A DNA stretch of 37,353 bases. It comes from an uncultured Phycisphaera sp. (lineage in GTDB: Bacteria > Planctomycetota > Phycisphaerae > Phycisphaerales > SM1A02). Position numbers and translations under genes: made by a program. The DNA is taken from the NCBI GenBank assembly GCA_937919685.1, contig CALFOM010000117.1, forward strand, positions 1-37,353. The letters are read 5' to 3'. Shown here piece after piece: positions 5,638 through 13,616 of this stretch. The notes beneath the pieces were generated by a model that made no database searches, was not told the DNA's origin, and worked only from the letters and a program-made list of their open reading frames with translations. The number at the start of each line of letters is the position of its first letter. Position 1 is the stretch's first letter.

Positions 5638-7551
5638 TCATGCGGTCGCCGTACACCCATTTCGCTGCCTCACCCAACGGGTGCCTGTTTCGGTGGCAGC
5701 GAAGGCCGGATCCACCTGGGCGAGCGCCGCGGCGATGAGTCCCATGAACAACGGCTGGGGCTCCAACGGGCGTCCCGTCAATTCAGGGTGGTACTGGGCC
5801 CCGATGAAGAAGGGGTGCGTCTCCTGCGGAAGTTCGAGCACCTGCATGATCGGGAATTCGGGGTGCCGGCCGGTGAATTGAAGGCCGCCGGAGTGAAGTT
5901 GGTCGACGTATTCGGGCTCGACCTCGAATCGGTGACGGAATCGTTCACGGACCAGGGTGCGATCGCTATGAAGGAAACTCACCAGCGAACCGGGTTCGAG
6001 GATCACATCCTGCGCGCCGAGTCGCATGGTGCCGCCCATGATCCCTTCGAGCTTCTTTTGATCAGGCAGTTCCGAAATCAACGGATGACCGCAGCCGGGG
6101 TTGAACTCGGTGGAGTCGGCGTCGGACAGGCCAAGCGCGTTCCTCGCGAATTCAATCACGGCGACCTGGAATCCAAGACAGATGCCCAAGAAGGGAATGC
6201 CTCGATTGCGGGCGTGCTCCGCGCAGCGGATCTTGCCTTCGACGCCACGGACGCCGAAGCCTCCCGGCACGATGATGGCATCCTTGCCGTCGAGCGTCGC
6301 GTCGGCATCGGCCGCCGTCACGATCTCGGTGGTATCGATCCACTCCGTCTCGATTTGGCAGTTGAGATGGATGCCCGCGTGTTCCACGGCCTTGTCGATC
6401 GAGGCGTAGGCATCGCGAAGGGCCGCGTACTTGCCTGCGATTCCGAGCTTGATCGAACGGGAGCGCGGGGCCGAGAGTCTTCTGGAGAAATCCTCCCACC
6501 TCACGCGGGCCTCGTCTTCATGGACCGGATCCACGCGGTCATGGAGCGCAAGCATCGAGAGGATCTCGCGATCGAGACTGGCCTTCCTCATCTCTTCGGG
6601 GATGGAGTAGACCGAATCCCGATCATGCATCGAGAAGATGCGATTCATCGGAATGTTCGAGAACATTCCGATCTTCTCCATGACCGTTTCGGTGACCGGA
6701 TTCTTAGCTCGACATGCGATGATGTTGGGCTGGATGCCCGCTTCCATCAGGCGTTTGATTCCGAGTTGAGCGGCCTTAGATTTCTGTTCGCCGAGAATCT
6801 GTGGTTCGAGGATATAGGTGAGGGCTACGAAACAGGCCGAGCCGGGGCCCTCCTCAAAGGCGAGTTCGCGGAGGGCCTCGATGTAGAAGCCGTTTTCGTA
6901 ATCGCCAGCGGTACCGCCGACTTCGACGAAGACGACGTCCGCGGGGCCGCCATTCTTGCCGCCTCGCATCGCGAGTTCTCGCAACTTGTACTTCACGGCG
7001 CCGGTGACGTGCGGAATCATCTGCACGTCACGACCGAGATAGCCGCCTCGTCGCTCCCGGTCCAAGACCTCGGTGTAGATCTGGCCCGCGGTGACGTAGT
7101 TGCGACGAGTGAGATTCTGATGAAGCATCCGCTCGTAGGTGCCGAGGTCCATGTCGGTTTCGAGGCCGTCATCGAGGACGAATACCTCGCCATGCCGATA
7201 TGGGTTCAGGGTGCCACTGTCGATGTTGAGATACCCCTCCATCTTGATGGGGGCCACCGAGAGTCCCTTGTCCTGCAAGAGTTTCGCGAGCGAACTCGAG
7301 AAGATGCCTTTGCCGAGACCGCTCATCACGGTTCCGATCACCGCGACATATCGGGTTCGCCCTCGGACGTATCCAGTTGGTTTCGGGCTGTACCACTCGG
7401 TGGACTCGCCAGATTTCCCAAAACTCGCCAGGAAGTCGATTTCTACCGGATCCGCGGCCTGGTCGAAAACGGGTTTCGCTGAGTTCGAATGAGAAGAGCC
7501 TCCGCCCTCGTGGGAGGCGGCAGGATGGAAGTGGCACGGCTTTTGGGGCAT
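5638..7551 (-). CDS. pyrG: CTP synthase
   Basis: CTP synthase makes CTP from UTP, ATP and glutamine. The protein has 637 residues, against about 535-550 for typical family members. The synthetase domain starts near residue 65 with a P-loop variant (GTVMSGLGKGI, about 73-83) and includes YLNIDSGTLNPYRHGEVFVLDDG. The glutamine amidotransferase half has the nucleophile motif FLGICLGFQ and the His-Glu motif QYHPEL near the C-terminus, so all catalytic parts appear present. The excess is mostly an N-terminal extension of about 65 residues, His- and Ser-rich at first. No ATG, GTG or TTG lies in frame nearer the domain, so either the extension is real or a non-standard start is used. The gene lies 75 bases downstream of kdsB on the same strand; KdsB consumes CTP. 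The sequence is divergent from the proteobacterial form. Confidence 0.95.
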   Translation of the reverse strand: MPQKPCHFHPAASHEGGGSSHSNSAKPVFDQAADPVEIDFLASFGKSGESTEWYSPKPTGYVRGRTRYVAVIGTVMSGLGKGIFSSSLAKLLQDKGLSVAPIKMEGYLNIDSGTLNPYRHGEVFVLDDGLETDMDLGTYERMLHQNLTRRNYVTAGQIYTEVLDRERRGGYLGRDVQMIPHVTGAVKYKLRELAMRGGKNGGPADVVFVEVGGTAGDYENGFYIEALRELAFEEGPGSACFVALTYILEPQILGEQKSKAAQLGIKRLMEAGIQPNIIACRAKNPVTETVMEKIGMFSNIPMNRIFSMHDRDSVYSIPEEMRKASLDREILSMLALHDRVDPVHEDEARVRWEDFSRRLSAPRSRSIKLGIAGKYAALRDAYASIDKAVEHAGIHLNCQIETEWIDTTEIVTAADADATLDGKDAIIVPGGFGVRGVEGKIRCAEHARNRGIPFLGICLGFQVAVIEFARNALGLSDADSTEFNPGCGHPLISELPDQKKLEGIMGGTMRLGAQDVILEPGSLVSFLHSDRTLVRERFRHRFEVEPEYVDQLHSGGLQFTGRHPEFPIMQVLELPQETHPFFIGAQYHPELTGRPLEPQPLFMGLIAAALAQVDPAFAATETGTRWVRQRNGCTATA

Positions 7552-10105: not shown

Positions 10106-10648
10106 GTGAACAGAAATCCAGCACAACCAGAGAAGATCGTTCTGTATCCAGATCCCGTCCTGACCCGTCGTGCAGGCCCCGTCGAGGTCTTTGATGAGCG
10201 GCTTCAATGCCTCGTCGATCGGATGGTGGAACTCATGCGGGAAGCGCAAGGGGCGGGCCTCGCGGCTCCCCAAGTGGGGATTTCACGGCGTCTCTTCGTG
10301 ATCGAGGACGACGCGAGACCGGAGGAGCCTCCCCAGCCGATGGTCTTCATCAATCCGGAGTTGGAACTCGGTGGAGATCTGGTCTCGTTCGAGGAGGGAT
10401 GCCTGAGCATCCCGGATGTCCGAGTCATGGTCCGCCGGCCTCAGCTGGTCCGCATCAAGGCGCTCGACGTTCATGGTGAGCCATTCGAACTCGAAGACGA
10501 GGATTTTCTTGCTCGGGTCTGGCAGCACGAGTTCGACCATCTCGAAGGCGTGCTCATCATCGATCGCATGAGTCCCCGGGATCGACTGGCGAATCGGCGA
10601 ACGTTGAAGGAAATGCGTCTGGACTTCGAGGAGGAGTTAGAACGATGA
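10106..10648 (+). CDS. def: Peptide deformylase
   Basis: Peptide deformylase removes the formyl group from the N-terminal methionine of new proteins. The protein has 180 residues. All three family motifs are present: GAGLAAPQ (49-56), EEGCLS (96-101) with metal ligand Cys99, and QHEFDH (140-145) with ligands His141 and His145 and catalytic Glu142. The start is GTG, the only reasonable start before the conserved region, and no Shine-Dalgarno sequence is obvious. It is the first gene of a plus-strand series; its stop overlaps the fmt start as ATGA, the common def-fmt pairing. The 17-bp tandem duplication lies directly upstream. The function is secure. Confidence 0.97.
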   Translation: MNRNPAQPEKIVLYPDPVLTRRAGPVEVFDERLQCLVDRMVELMREAQGAGLAAPQVGISRRLFVIEDDARPEEPPQPMVFINPELELGGDLVSFEEGCLSIPDVRVMVRRPQLVRIKALDVHGEPFELEDEDFLARVWQHEFDHLEGVLIIDRMSPRDRLANRRTLKEMRLDFEEELER

Positions 10649-11637
10649 CCGCGGACGGCCGACTTCGAATCGCCTTCCTTGGATCCGGGGCGTTCGGTCT
10701 CCCCACGCTTGAAGCGCTCGGAGCGGTCCACGACGTCGTCCTTGCCGTGTCGCAACCGGACCGACCCGCAGGACGGGGGAGGCAGTCGACCTGCACGCCA
10801 ATCTCCGCGCGGGTTCTCGAAGACCATGCACGGACCGACGGCCTCTTTGCGGAAACGGCGATTATCCGCACCGATGATGTGAATGCCGCGGCGGTTCGGG
10901 ATCGGATCGCCGACCTTCAGGCCGATGCGATGGTGGTGATCGCCTTCGGCCAGAAACTTGGGTCGGCCCTTCTCGATGGCCGTTTCGCCGTGAATCTTCA
11001 TGCGTCCCTGCTGCCTCGCTGGCGGGGCGCCGCGCCCATCAATCGGGCGATGATGGCCGGGGACCTTGAGACCGGGGTGAGTGTGATTTCGCTCGCGGAA
11101 CGCATGGATGCCGGAGGCGTGCATGCCATGCGATCGACGCCGATCGATCCAGCGGAGACCGCCGGGGAACTCCACGACCGTCTCGCCCGGCTGGGCATTG
11201 AACCGATGCTCGAAGTGCTGGAGAGATGGCAATCTCGTCTGGTCGAGACTGTGACCCAGGACGAGCACGCGGCGACGCCGGCCGCGAAACTGTCGAAGTC
11301 GGAGGCGACCGTCGATTTCGCGGCGCCGTCTTCTCTGGTTCGAGGGCGAATTCACGGCTTGGTTCCTTGGCCCGGCTGCCAGGTGGACGCGGTGTCACCG
11401 GATGGCGGTTCCCAACTCCTGAGAATCCACCGGGTGCTGGAGATGGACGAGTCGACCGGCGTTTTGCCGGGAACGATCGGCGAAGGGGGCGTCGTCGGTT
11501 GCGAGACCGGGTCGATCCGACTGCTCGAAGTTCAGGTGCCGGGCGGTCGTGCGATGGCCTGGGAAGACCTCCAACGGGGCCGACCGTTCCCGATCGGAAC
11601 GGTGTTGCGGCCACGATCGGCGGGAACGCCGACATGA
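10645..11637 (+). CDS. fmt: Methionyl-tRNA formyltransferase
   Basis: This enzyme transfers formyl from 10-formyltetrahydrofolate to Met-tRNA(fMet) for initiation. The protein has 330 residues. The N-terminal formyltransferase domain begins RIAFLGSGAFGLPTLEAL. The catalytic segment NLHASLLPRWRGAAPI supplies Asn117 and His119, and Asp155 in MDAGG is the probable third active-site residue. The C-terminal tRNA-binding domain begins around residue 210 with VRGRIHGLVPWPG. The length is normal, slightly above the E. coli protein. ATG overlaps the def stop, and its own stop overlaps the next start, both as ATGA, so coupled translation is very likely. Confidence 0.97.
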   Translation: MTADGRLRIAFLGSGAFGLPTLEALGAVHDVVLAVSQPDRPAGRGRQSTCTPISARVLEDHARTDGLFAETAIIRTDDVNAAAVRDRIADLQADAMVVIAFGQKLGSALLDGRFAVNLHASLLPRWRGAAPINRAMMAGDLETGVSVISLAERMDAGGVHAMRSTPIDPAETAGELHDRLARLGIEPMLEVLERWQSRLVETVTQDEHAATPAAKLSKSEATVDFAAPSSLVRGRIHGLVPWPGCQVDAVSPDGGSQLLRIHRVLEMDESTGVLPGTIGEGGVVGCETGSIRLLEVQVPGGRAMAWEDLQRGRPFPIGTVLRPRSAGTPT

Positions 11638-12425
11638 CGTCGCCACGCCGATCCAGAAGCTTTGTGGCGGAGTTCGCGTCCAACCTCTGGGACCTGCTCC
11701 AGGGACAAGTGGGGTCGGCGCGACGCGGTCGATTCGCCCCTTCGGCCCCGAAGGCGAAGTCGGCGCGTCCTCCCCGAAGATCACGCGGATCAGTGCCGCC
11801 GGCGGCACCGACCCCGGCCGTGAAGGGCCGGAGTTCCCGCCAACAGGGGCGGTATGACGAACTCGTGAAGACGATGAAGGTCGAATTCGGGTTGCGGGTG
11901 GTGCGATGGCGATCCAGTACCAGCGGGTGTGCCTGGCAGGTCTTTTATCAGGACGGTTCCGTCGCCCGGTTGATCGAATCGCCCTATCCCCGAGGGCCGA
12001 TGAGTTGCGCGGTGTTTCTGCACGAGGTCGGGCACCATGCCATCGGGTTCAAGACCTTTCGGCCTCGATGCCGAGAGGAGTATCACGCCTGGCGTTGGTC
12101 CTTCGAAAAGATGCTCGAACTGGACTTCAACCTCACCGAATCCGTCCGGCGGCGGCGGGATGAGGCGTTGCACTATGCCGTGGCGAAAGCCGCTCGACGA
12201 GGTCTGAAACGACTCCCAGCAGAACTGATTCCGTTTCTCGAACCGCGGTCCCGGGATCTCGAACCGTTGCCCGCACTGCTCGAGCCGCCCGTGAACCCGG
12301 TGCTCGCCGCCCGAATCAGGGCAGAGCGCGAGACGCTGGGGAATGTCGGGGGATCAGCGGAGGACGATCTCGGGACGGTTGTCGAATCCGGCGGGGTCGC
12401 CATCGGCGTGGAGCGTGGCGGGTAG
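11634..12425 (+). CDS. Putative HEXXH zinc metallopeptidase, family not recognised
   Basis: The proposed product has 263 residues from ATG 11634, which overlaps the fmt stop as ATGA. The longer ORF from 11226 lies inside fmt and is rejected. The first 70 residues are basic and rich in Pro, Ala and Ser, probably disordered. A folded part begins near 72. It contains HEVGHHAIG (HEXXH at 130-134), and 15 residues later CREEYHAW, where Glu148 or Glu149 could be the third zinc ligand, as in gluzincin or ImmA/IrrE-like peptidases. The tail is again Gly/Val-rich. There is no signal peptide, so it is probably cytoplasmic. It sits between fmt and queA with a 12-base gap to queA. The substrate is unknown; peptidase activity is inferred from one motif. 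Confidence 0.65.
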   Translation: MTSPRRSRSFVAEFASNLWDLLQGQVGSARRGRFAPSAPKAKSARPPRRSRGSVPPAAPTPAVKGRSSRQQGRYDELVKTMKVEFGLRVVRWRSSTSGCAWQVFYQDGSVARLIESPYPRGPMSCAVFLHEVGHHAIGFKTFRPRCREEYHAWRWSFEKMLELDFNLTESVRRRRDEALHYAVAKAARRGLKRLPAELIPFLEPRSRDLEPLPALLEPPVNPVLAARIRAERETLGNVGGSAEDDLGTVVESGGVAIGVERGG

Positions 12426-12437
12426 CATCGGAATTCG

Positions 12438-13616
12438 ATGGGGCTCCGTACTGATCAACTCGATTTCGAATTCGACCCGGCGCTCGTCGCGGCGTCGCCG
12501 GTCGAGCCTCGCGACGCCGCGCGGCTGCTGGTGGTGACGCTCCCCCCAATCGATGCGGACGATGGCCGTGAATGCGGCCTCGATCATCTTCAGGTTCGTG
12601 ATCTTCCGGACCTGCTCGAGAGAGGGGATCGGCTGGTGCTCAACGAGACGAGAGTGGTCCCTGCCCGCATTGCCTGCCGCCGGGTGGACACCGGGGGGCT
12701 CATCGACGGATTGCTCTCTGAAGCAGTCGGCGTCGGGCGTTGGTGGGCGATGCTCCGCAAAAGTCGTCGACTTCAGCCCGGGCACGAACTCCGGGTGATC
12801 GGTCATCGGGGGCAGGACACAGATTTTCGCCTCGTGGTCGAGGATCTCGACTCGGAGGGGCGGGTTCTCGTGGTGCTGAAAGTCGACGGGGACCCTTCGG
12901 GACCGGGGTCGGCAGTGGGCCATGATCAAGTGCTGGCACTCTGGCAGCAGGCAGGCCTCGTGCCGCTCCCGCCGTATATCCGGCATGCTCGCCGCGATCG
13001 TGGCCTTCCGGAGACCGATCCCCATGACCCTGACTGGTACCAGACGACCTTCGCGGCGCTCGACGACCCGACGGCATCCGTCGCGGCTCCGACCGCCGGG
13101 CTGCATCTGACCGAGGGCATGAGACAACGGCTCTCCGTGCGAGGAATCGAGGAGGTTCGCATCTCGCTGGAAGTCGGAGCTGGGACGTTTAAGCCCGTAG
13201 AAGAGGACGAACTCGACGCGCATCCAATGCACGAGGAGCGATGCCTGATCACCCCGACGGCGGTTTCGGCCATCCGAGAATGCGAAACCGCCCGGCAACG
13301 CGGCGAAGGACGGTTCGTGGCGGTTGGTACCACCAGCGTGCGAACGCTCGAATCGATGCCGGACCTTGACCATCTGCCGGCGTTGATCGAAGGGCGGCAC
13401 CAGTGGAGAACCGATCTTTTGATCCAGCCGGGATATGAGTTTCGTCGGGTTGATTCGATGCTGACCAACTTCCATTTGCCTCGCTCGACATTGCTTGCTC
13501 TGGTCGCCGCCATGATCGGCCTCGAACGAATGCACGACGTCTACGCCACCGCGATCGCGGAGCGGTACCGCTTCTTCAGCTACGGAGATGCGATGTTCAT
13601 ACGGCGTCCAAGATGA
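12438..13616 (+). CDS. queA: S-adenosylmethionine:tRNA ribosyltransferase-isomerase
   Basis: QueA transfers and rearranges the ribosyl part of AdoMet onto preQ1 in tRNA to give epoxyqueuosine, the penultimate queuosine step. The protein has 392 residues, slightly longer than the usual 340-360. Family motifs in order are LPLPPYIRHAR, VAAPTAGLHLTE, VGAGTFKPV, GTTSVRTLES, MLTNFHLPRSTLLALV and the C-terminal YRFFSYGDAMFI. Extra residues lie in the N-terminal third. It starts 12 bases after the putative peptidase gene and runs in the same direction as murE. QueG, the next enzyme of the pathway, is encoded at 31146-32264 in another operon. Confidence 0.96.
   Translation: MGLRTDQLDFEFDPALVAASPVEPRDAARLLVVTLPPIDADDGRECGLDHLQVRDLPDLLERGDRLVLNETRVVPARIACRRVDTGGLIDGLLSEAVGVGRWWAMLRKSRRLQPGHELRVIGHRGQDTDFRLVVEDLDSEGRVLVVLKVDGDPSGPGSAVGHDQVLALWQQAGLVPLPPYIRHARRDRGLPETDPHDPDWYQTTFAALDDPTASVAAPTAGLHLTEGMRQRLSVRGIEEVRISLEVGAGTFKPVEEDELDAHPMHEERCLITPTAVSAIRECETARQRGEGRFVAVGTTSVRTLESMPDLDHLPALIEGRHQWRTDLLIQPGYEFRRVDSMLTNFHLPRSTLLALVAAMIGLERMHDVYATAIAERYRFFSYGDAMFIRRPR

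Follow-up and report, generated by a model that had tools for sequence, protein, structure and literature searches.

A zincin-like protein family of the class Phycisphaerae with a putative sliding-clamp docking motif

The gene at 11634–12425 of the window (the whole stretch of 37,353 nucleotides of uncultured Phycisphaera sp. DNA analysed here) encodes a member of a zincin family that is absent from the family databases searched, and our analysis gives a first hypothesis for its role. Homologues number hundreds, and all those seen belong to the class Phycisphaerae. We propose, at about even odds, that the family is a class-restricted zincin protease that would dock on the sliding clamp DnaN via a short motif on a flexible basic linker and cut proteins obstructing the replication fork; by analogy, it may be to bacteria what SPRTN, a protease of the replication fork, is to humans.

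The open reading frame, which encodes 263 residues, had been pointed out in an earlier reading of the letters alone (the sequence-only reading), and its layout is confirmed: its ATG start (11634) and the fmt stop codon overlap in an ATGA at 11634–11637, the queA start at 12438 lies 12 bases past its own stop, and translation places HEVGH at residues 130–134 and the glutamate pair at residues 148 and 149 (codons 12075–12080), as claimed. The ORF is not a product of chance, because 45 of 60 relatives carry it and none of the 133 distinct homologues departs from the H, E, H, E and E. Pfam identifies the neighbours of the gene as def, fmt, queA and murE. The features are as follows.

11634..12425, + strand: CDS of the zincin family protein with the putative clamp motif, 263 aa (ORF translation; orthologues)
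11676..11699, + strand: residues 15–22, ASNLWDLL, conserved short docking motif, putatively beta-clamp-binding, at the position equivalent to QLxLF (87 of 133 members; logo; codon variation)
11700..11837, + strand: residues 23–68, disordered basic Pro-rich linker (low-confidence part of the model; family linker charge)
11838..12239, + strand: residues 69–202, predicted zincin domain, alpha-beta-beta-beta-alpha(HExxH)-alpha(Glu)-alpha (AlphaFold2, pLDDT about 97; alignment)
12021..12035, + strand: residues 130–134, HEVGH, presumed pair of zinc ligands with the catalytic Glu (no variation among 133 members)
12069..12080, + strand: C146-R-E148-E149, candidate third zinc ligand (E148 or E149) and near-invariant Cys (conservation, n = 133)
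12240..12422, + strand: residues 203–263, disordered C-terminal tail, kept only within the genus (model; relatives)
10106..10648, + strand: def (peptide deformylase), context only (Pfam)
10645..11637, + strand: fmt, context only (Pfam; order-level loci)
12438..13616, + strand: queA, context only (Pfam; order-level loci)

The statement that the protein belongs to no known family was right, as Pfam, NCBIfam and PHROGs hold no match to it; PADLOC and PDB sequences gave nothing significant, and 15 diverse members compared with Pfam, PADLOC and NCBIfam returned scattered weak matches only. The family is present in those 45 of 60 relatives at identities of up to 84% (46 of 61 counting the window's own genome) and in 61 of the 198 genomes of the class Phycisphaerae. 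When 392 genomes from the whole phylum were searched with a profile, it was recovered in the window's order only, and a single-sequence search elsewhere in the phylum gave two marginal matches. At least 231 related stretches came out of a scan that covered 84,980 species genomes, and the 80 of them that were retained are labelled Phycisphaerae, other planctomycetes, plain bacterium and, once, Vicinamibacteraceae (L085), a label that looks mistaken. A mobile or viral origin was rejected on zero matches in viral contigs, plasmids and phages, and a defence system on the weakness of the PADLOC matches, the best being 0.0024 (peptidase_U41, in 4 of the 15 members).

In the presumed active site, all 133 distinct members share H130, E131, H134, H135, E148 and E149 (window numbering), which covers every position whose conservation the sequence-only reading had singled out (His130, Glu131, His134 and Glu148/149); C146 is kept in 132 of the 133, and W92-R93, G98, A100, P117 and P119 are invariant in what is a strongly conserved sheet region. 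We infer that the family core binds zinc, and we would likewise expect it to be a protease, with the substrate proposed below. Cys146 (12069–12071) stands two residues ahead of the paired glutamates, one of which is the putative third zinc ligand, an arrangement that would suit a cysteine switch.

A full-length AlphaFold2 model built with 91 sequences gives residues 69–202 a pLDDT of about 97 and both tails low values, and a model of the core only reaches a pLDDT of 96 and a pTM of 0.90. The predicted core runs through a helix, three strands, the HExxH helix, a second helix starting near the Glu pair and a third helix. HExxH lies within helix 122–137 and E148/E149 open the next helix, 145–162, both at a pLDDT of about 97. 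Together with the invariance of the motif in orthologues, this HExxH helix followed by a Glu helix supports the zincin reading made from the sequence alone, and of the two findings that the sequence-only reading had named as counter-evidence, neither turned up. The family has the sequence and model features of clan MA type zincins, namely HExxH with a conserved downstream candidate for the third ligand, adjacent helices and a preceding beta-sheet.

Neither a profile search of the PDB nor a PDB fold search with the full model and the core gave a significant match. In a viral structure library the top match is unnamed (E 2.3e-4) and stands above IrrE-like phage proteins at probability 1.00 (E 1.1e-3 and 3.1e-3), with SprT-like proteins at probability 0.99; the named IrrE matches have TM values of at most 0.38/0.50. 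Profile comparisons with local SprT and M78 alignments were run in local mode, global mode being uninformative: against M78 proteins of the same class, hhalign put the strands, the HExxH and the Glu helix in register at a probability of 30%, and against SprT it aligned the region around HExxH only, at 20%, the reversed control standing at about 1%. At its threshold PF06114 (ImmA/IrrE, M78) matches neither the window protein nor any of the 15 diverse members, and the comparison with ImmA/IrrE that the sequence-only reading had suggested thus yielded no Pfam match, the weak in-register resemblance to the M78 profile being the best found. The likeness to ImmA/IrrE lies in the HExxH and in a Glu that comes after it within an ExxAxxxA helix; the family differs in having no HTH and no paired repressor, and its HExxH-to-Glu spacing is 14–15. 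PF10263 (SprT) likewise matches neither the window protein nor the 15 members, and the HExxH...H ligand set is not found, the third position being Glu. The predicted core is a confident, compact zincin-like fold whose nearest relatives, by weak resemblance, are ImmA/IrrE-like and then SprT-like proteins, and we read the family as a distinct compact zincin family that is distantly akin to M78 and not a member of it.

The N-terminal tail is disordered and changes fast save for one short motif, NLWDLL at residues 17–22 of the window protein (LWDLL, 18–22). The sequence-only reading had described this end as disordered and basic: its basic, Pro-rich character is indeed conserved, but its sequence is not, except for LWDLL, which that reading missed. 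The Gly/Val-rich C-terminal end that it also described is present in the window protein but is confined to the genus of the window. The pattern LW[DEHNGR][LIMVF] occurs in 87 of the 133 tails against a shuffle mean of 0.5, and the residues of the LWxL motif stay fixed while synonymous Leu and Asp codons vary. The 46 tails without LWxL carry Q..LF in 16 cases (0.28 in shuffles), Q[LP].LF in 13 (0.06) and the exact clamp consensus QL[SD]LF in four (0.00), counts that, like the 87, are not phylogenetically independent. Q..LF is found in none of the 87 LWxL tails, so that the two types are mutually exclusive, and reversed motif patterns have zero matches in tails. Examples of the Q type are HRQLSLFEQ (L171, L182), ERQLDLFAF (L170), RQLGLFDHL (L050, L167) and MQLELF (L132). 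Both types align as x-L-x-L-[FW]-[DE]-x-L, and RQLDLWNLI (L096) bridges them.

On the tree, QxxLF members nest among LWxL members, L132 falling inside an LWxL clade, and a single clade among the LWxL rows (f4, support 99/98) carries its motif at the C-terminus instead, for example KQLWLFGAGR (L020). The placements of L132 and f4 therefore indicate that the motif has changed form and place repeatedly, and this repeated replacement, rather than the counts, is the main argument; given the nesting and the C-terminal form, the motif behaves like a docking site that can be carried from one place to another. Across the drawn root lies the f11 clade (15 rows), which lacks both tail and motif, so clamp docking would not be universal in the family. 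In the window's genome, a survey with one DNA pattern found LWDLL in no other plausible gene; two further pattern matches were dismissed as not lying in plausible genes.

The Q-type tails resemble the published bacterial clamp motif, QL(S/D)LF, which is known to vary (PMC9690074), and the mycobacterial ImuB motif, QLPLWG, shows that an aromatic Trp is accepted (PMC10421592). Within the same genomes DnaE carries a QxxLF-type motif (GQNMLFGG, GQESLFGG and similar; AGQNMLFGGG in the window's genome), Pol IV-type proteins carry QLGLFDQQ (one Pol IV of the class), TQESLFED and VQAGLFEQ, and a DnaN gene is present in the window's genome. The clamp clients ImuB, DinB and DnaE thus share with the zincin family a QLxLF or QLPLW-type pentapeptide in a tail or loop, but they are polymerases or polymerase relatives, whereas the family here is a zincin. 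The window protein itself has the Gln-less form NLWDLL, the Q..LF type being that of the 16 of 46 members above. Clamp docking via the tail motif is, at the level of sequence, well supported but unproven. Two DnaE2-type polymerases (L293 and L295, genomes G000 and G006) carry DDDLPLFGELE or DDDLPLFDTLE, likely a Gln-less clamp motif, which hints that the clade tolerates Gln-less forms.

Past the motif the window protein has 13 K/R and zero D/E in 52 residues, and linkers across the family have a median length of 35 residues and a median net charge of +8, positive in 85 of 87; such a basic linker is of the kind that would be expected to touch DNA. In the mechanism that we propose, the tail motif would bind DnaN, the basic linker would contact DNA, and the clamp would thereby keep the protease where DNA is replicated or repaired, and there the zincin would cut nearby fork-obstructing proteins. 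The most plausible targets would be DNA-protein crosslinks or clamp clients that have become trapped; SPRTN acts in this way with PCNA. The layout resembles that of SPRTN in combining a small HExxH metalloprotease domain, a basic disordered region and a sliding-clamp motif (in SPRTN, HEXXH at 111–115, basic region at 220–230 and PIP box at 325–332; PMC9240642). In contrast to SPRTN, the family's third ligand candidate is Glu and not His, no UBZ or p97 motif was seen, and its motif is of the bacterial clamp type and usually N-terminal. That the family is a DnaN-tethered protease for replication-coupled crosslink repair, of separate origin from SPRTN and converged on the same protease-linker-clamp motif arrangement, is a narrower and more tentative proposal, which we hold at roughly one chance in three. 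Counted against the clamp reading are the Gln-less SNLWDLL of the window, the motif-free f11, the lack of a conserved DNA-repair neighbour in the loci compared, the lack of a PDB fold match and the report that SPRTN's own PIP box is dispensable for its recruitment (PMC7782752).

The main rival is an IrrE-type regulatory protease: a clamp-docked regulator of the damage response that would detect forks that have stalled and cut one particular repressor or replication protein, as opposed to a protease for crosslinks in general. IrrE/PprI cleaves DdrO and senses ssDNA directly (PMC10904395), and both the closest fold matches and the M78 profile match, which covers the strands, HExxH and ExxA helix in register, lean the same way. 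However, that profile match has a probability of only 30%, the family has no HTH domain, no adjacent repressor gene was seen and no partner gene travelling with the family was found, and we consider such a regulator unlikely. The chance that the zincin fold is catalytically inactive or non-proteolytic and serves as a scaffold is smaller still: the family has no known activity, but inactive relatives rarely keep what is kept here, the H, E, H, E and E in every member and Cys146 in all but one.

It is also possible, though we would put it at odds of about one in five, that LWDLL/QxxLF binds a partner other than DnaN and that the zincin has its targets elsewhere, nascent proteins handled together with Def and Fmt being one example. 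Most members carry LWDLL without Gln, and fmt lies immediately upstream in 70 of the 76 order-level loci with room for it; queA follows downstream in 30 of 69. Yet exact QLSLF or QLDLF replaces LWDLL in related lineages, and no def, fmt or queA occurs in the neighbourhoods of members outside the order. This gene context is order-specific, and operon placement therefore says little about function; operon function was rejected as an explanation since its genes are not common to members outside the order. The link to protein N-termini, tRNA modification and the cell wall that the sequence-only reading had drawn from these neighbours is for the same reason not supported, and also because the docking motif points to DNA replication; of that reading's overall interpretation, the zincin part stands and the link falls.

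Clamp-tied proteolytic crosslink repair is known from eukaryotes. The literature searched holds no clamp-bound bacterial protease, and if our proposal of a DnaN-docked protease is true, a clamp-tethered zincin across much of Phycisphaerae would be the bacteria's own version and a simple, testable system. In bacteria, loss of cytosolic ATP-dependent proteases left survival after crosslinking agents unaffected (reviewed in PMC6945406).

At one locus of a close relative (L057; genome G007, contig C192, about 6937–7139) queA lies about 1.7 kb further downstream than in the window, and the gap ahead of it holds two pieces resembling residues 196–263, the C-terminal tail. The SprT-like proteins of Phycisphaerae (PF10263) are also HExxH zincins of similar size and form a separate family. 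Among genomes of the order, 6 of 10 that lack the zincin family have SprT-like genes versus 2 of 31 that carry it (Fisher p 0.001), a suggestive pattern to which we give little weight; at class level 11 of the 61 family-bearing genomes have both, where about 13 are expected, which is near chance, and a role for the family as a general SprT replacement was rejected. One SprT-like protein (L211), from a genome without the zincin family (G022), begins with a clamp-like MEAEPTLFDPP, and the f15 SprT-like proteins (L252 and other loci) often have an N-terminal LW[TK]P stretch; judging by these stretches, the SprT-like proteins of these genomes may dock on the clamp too.
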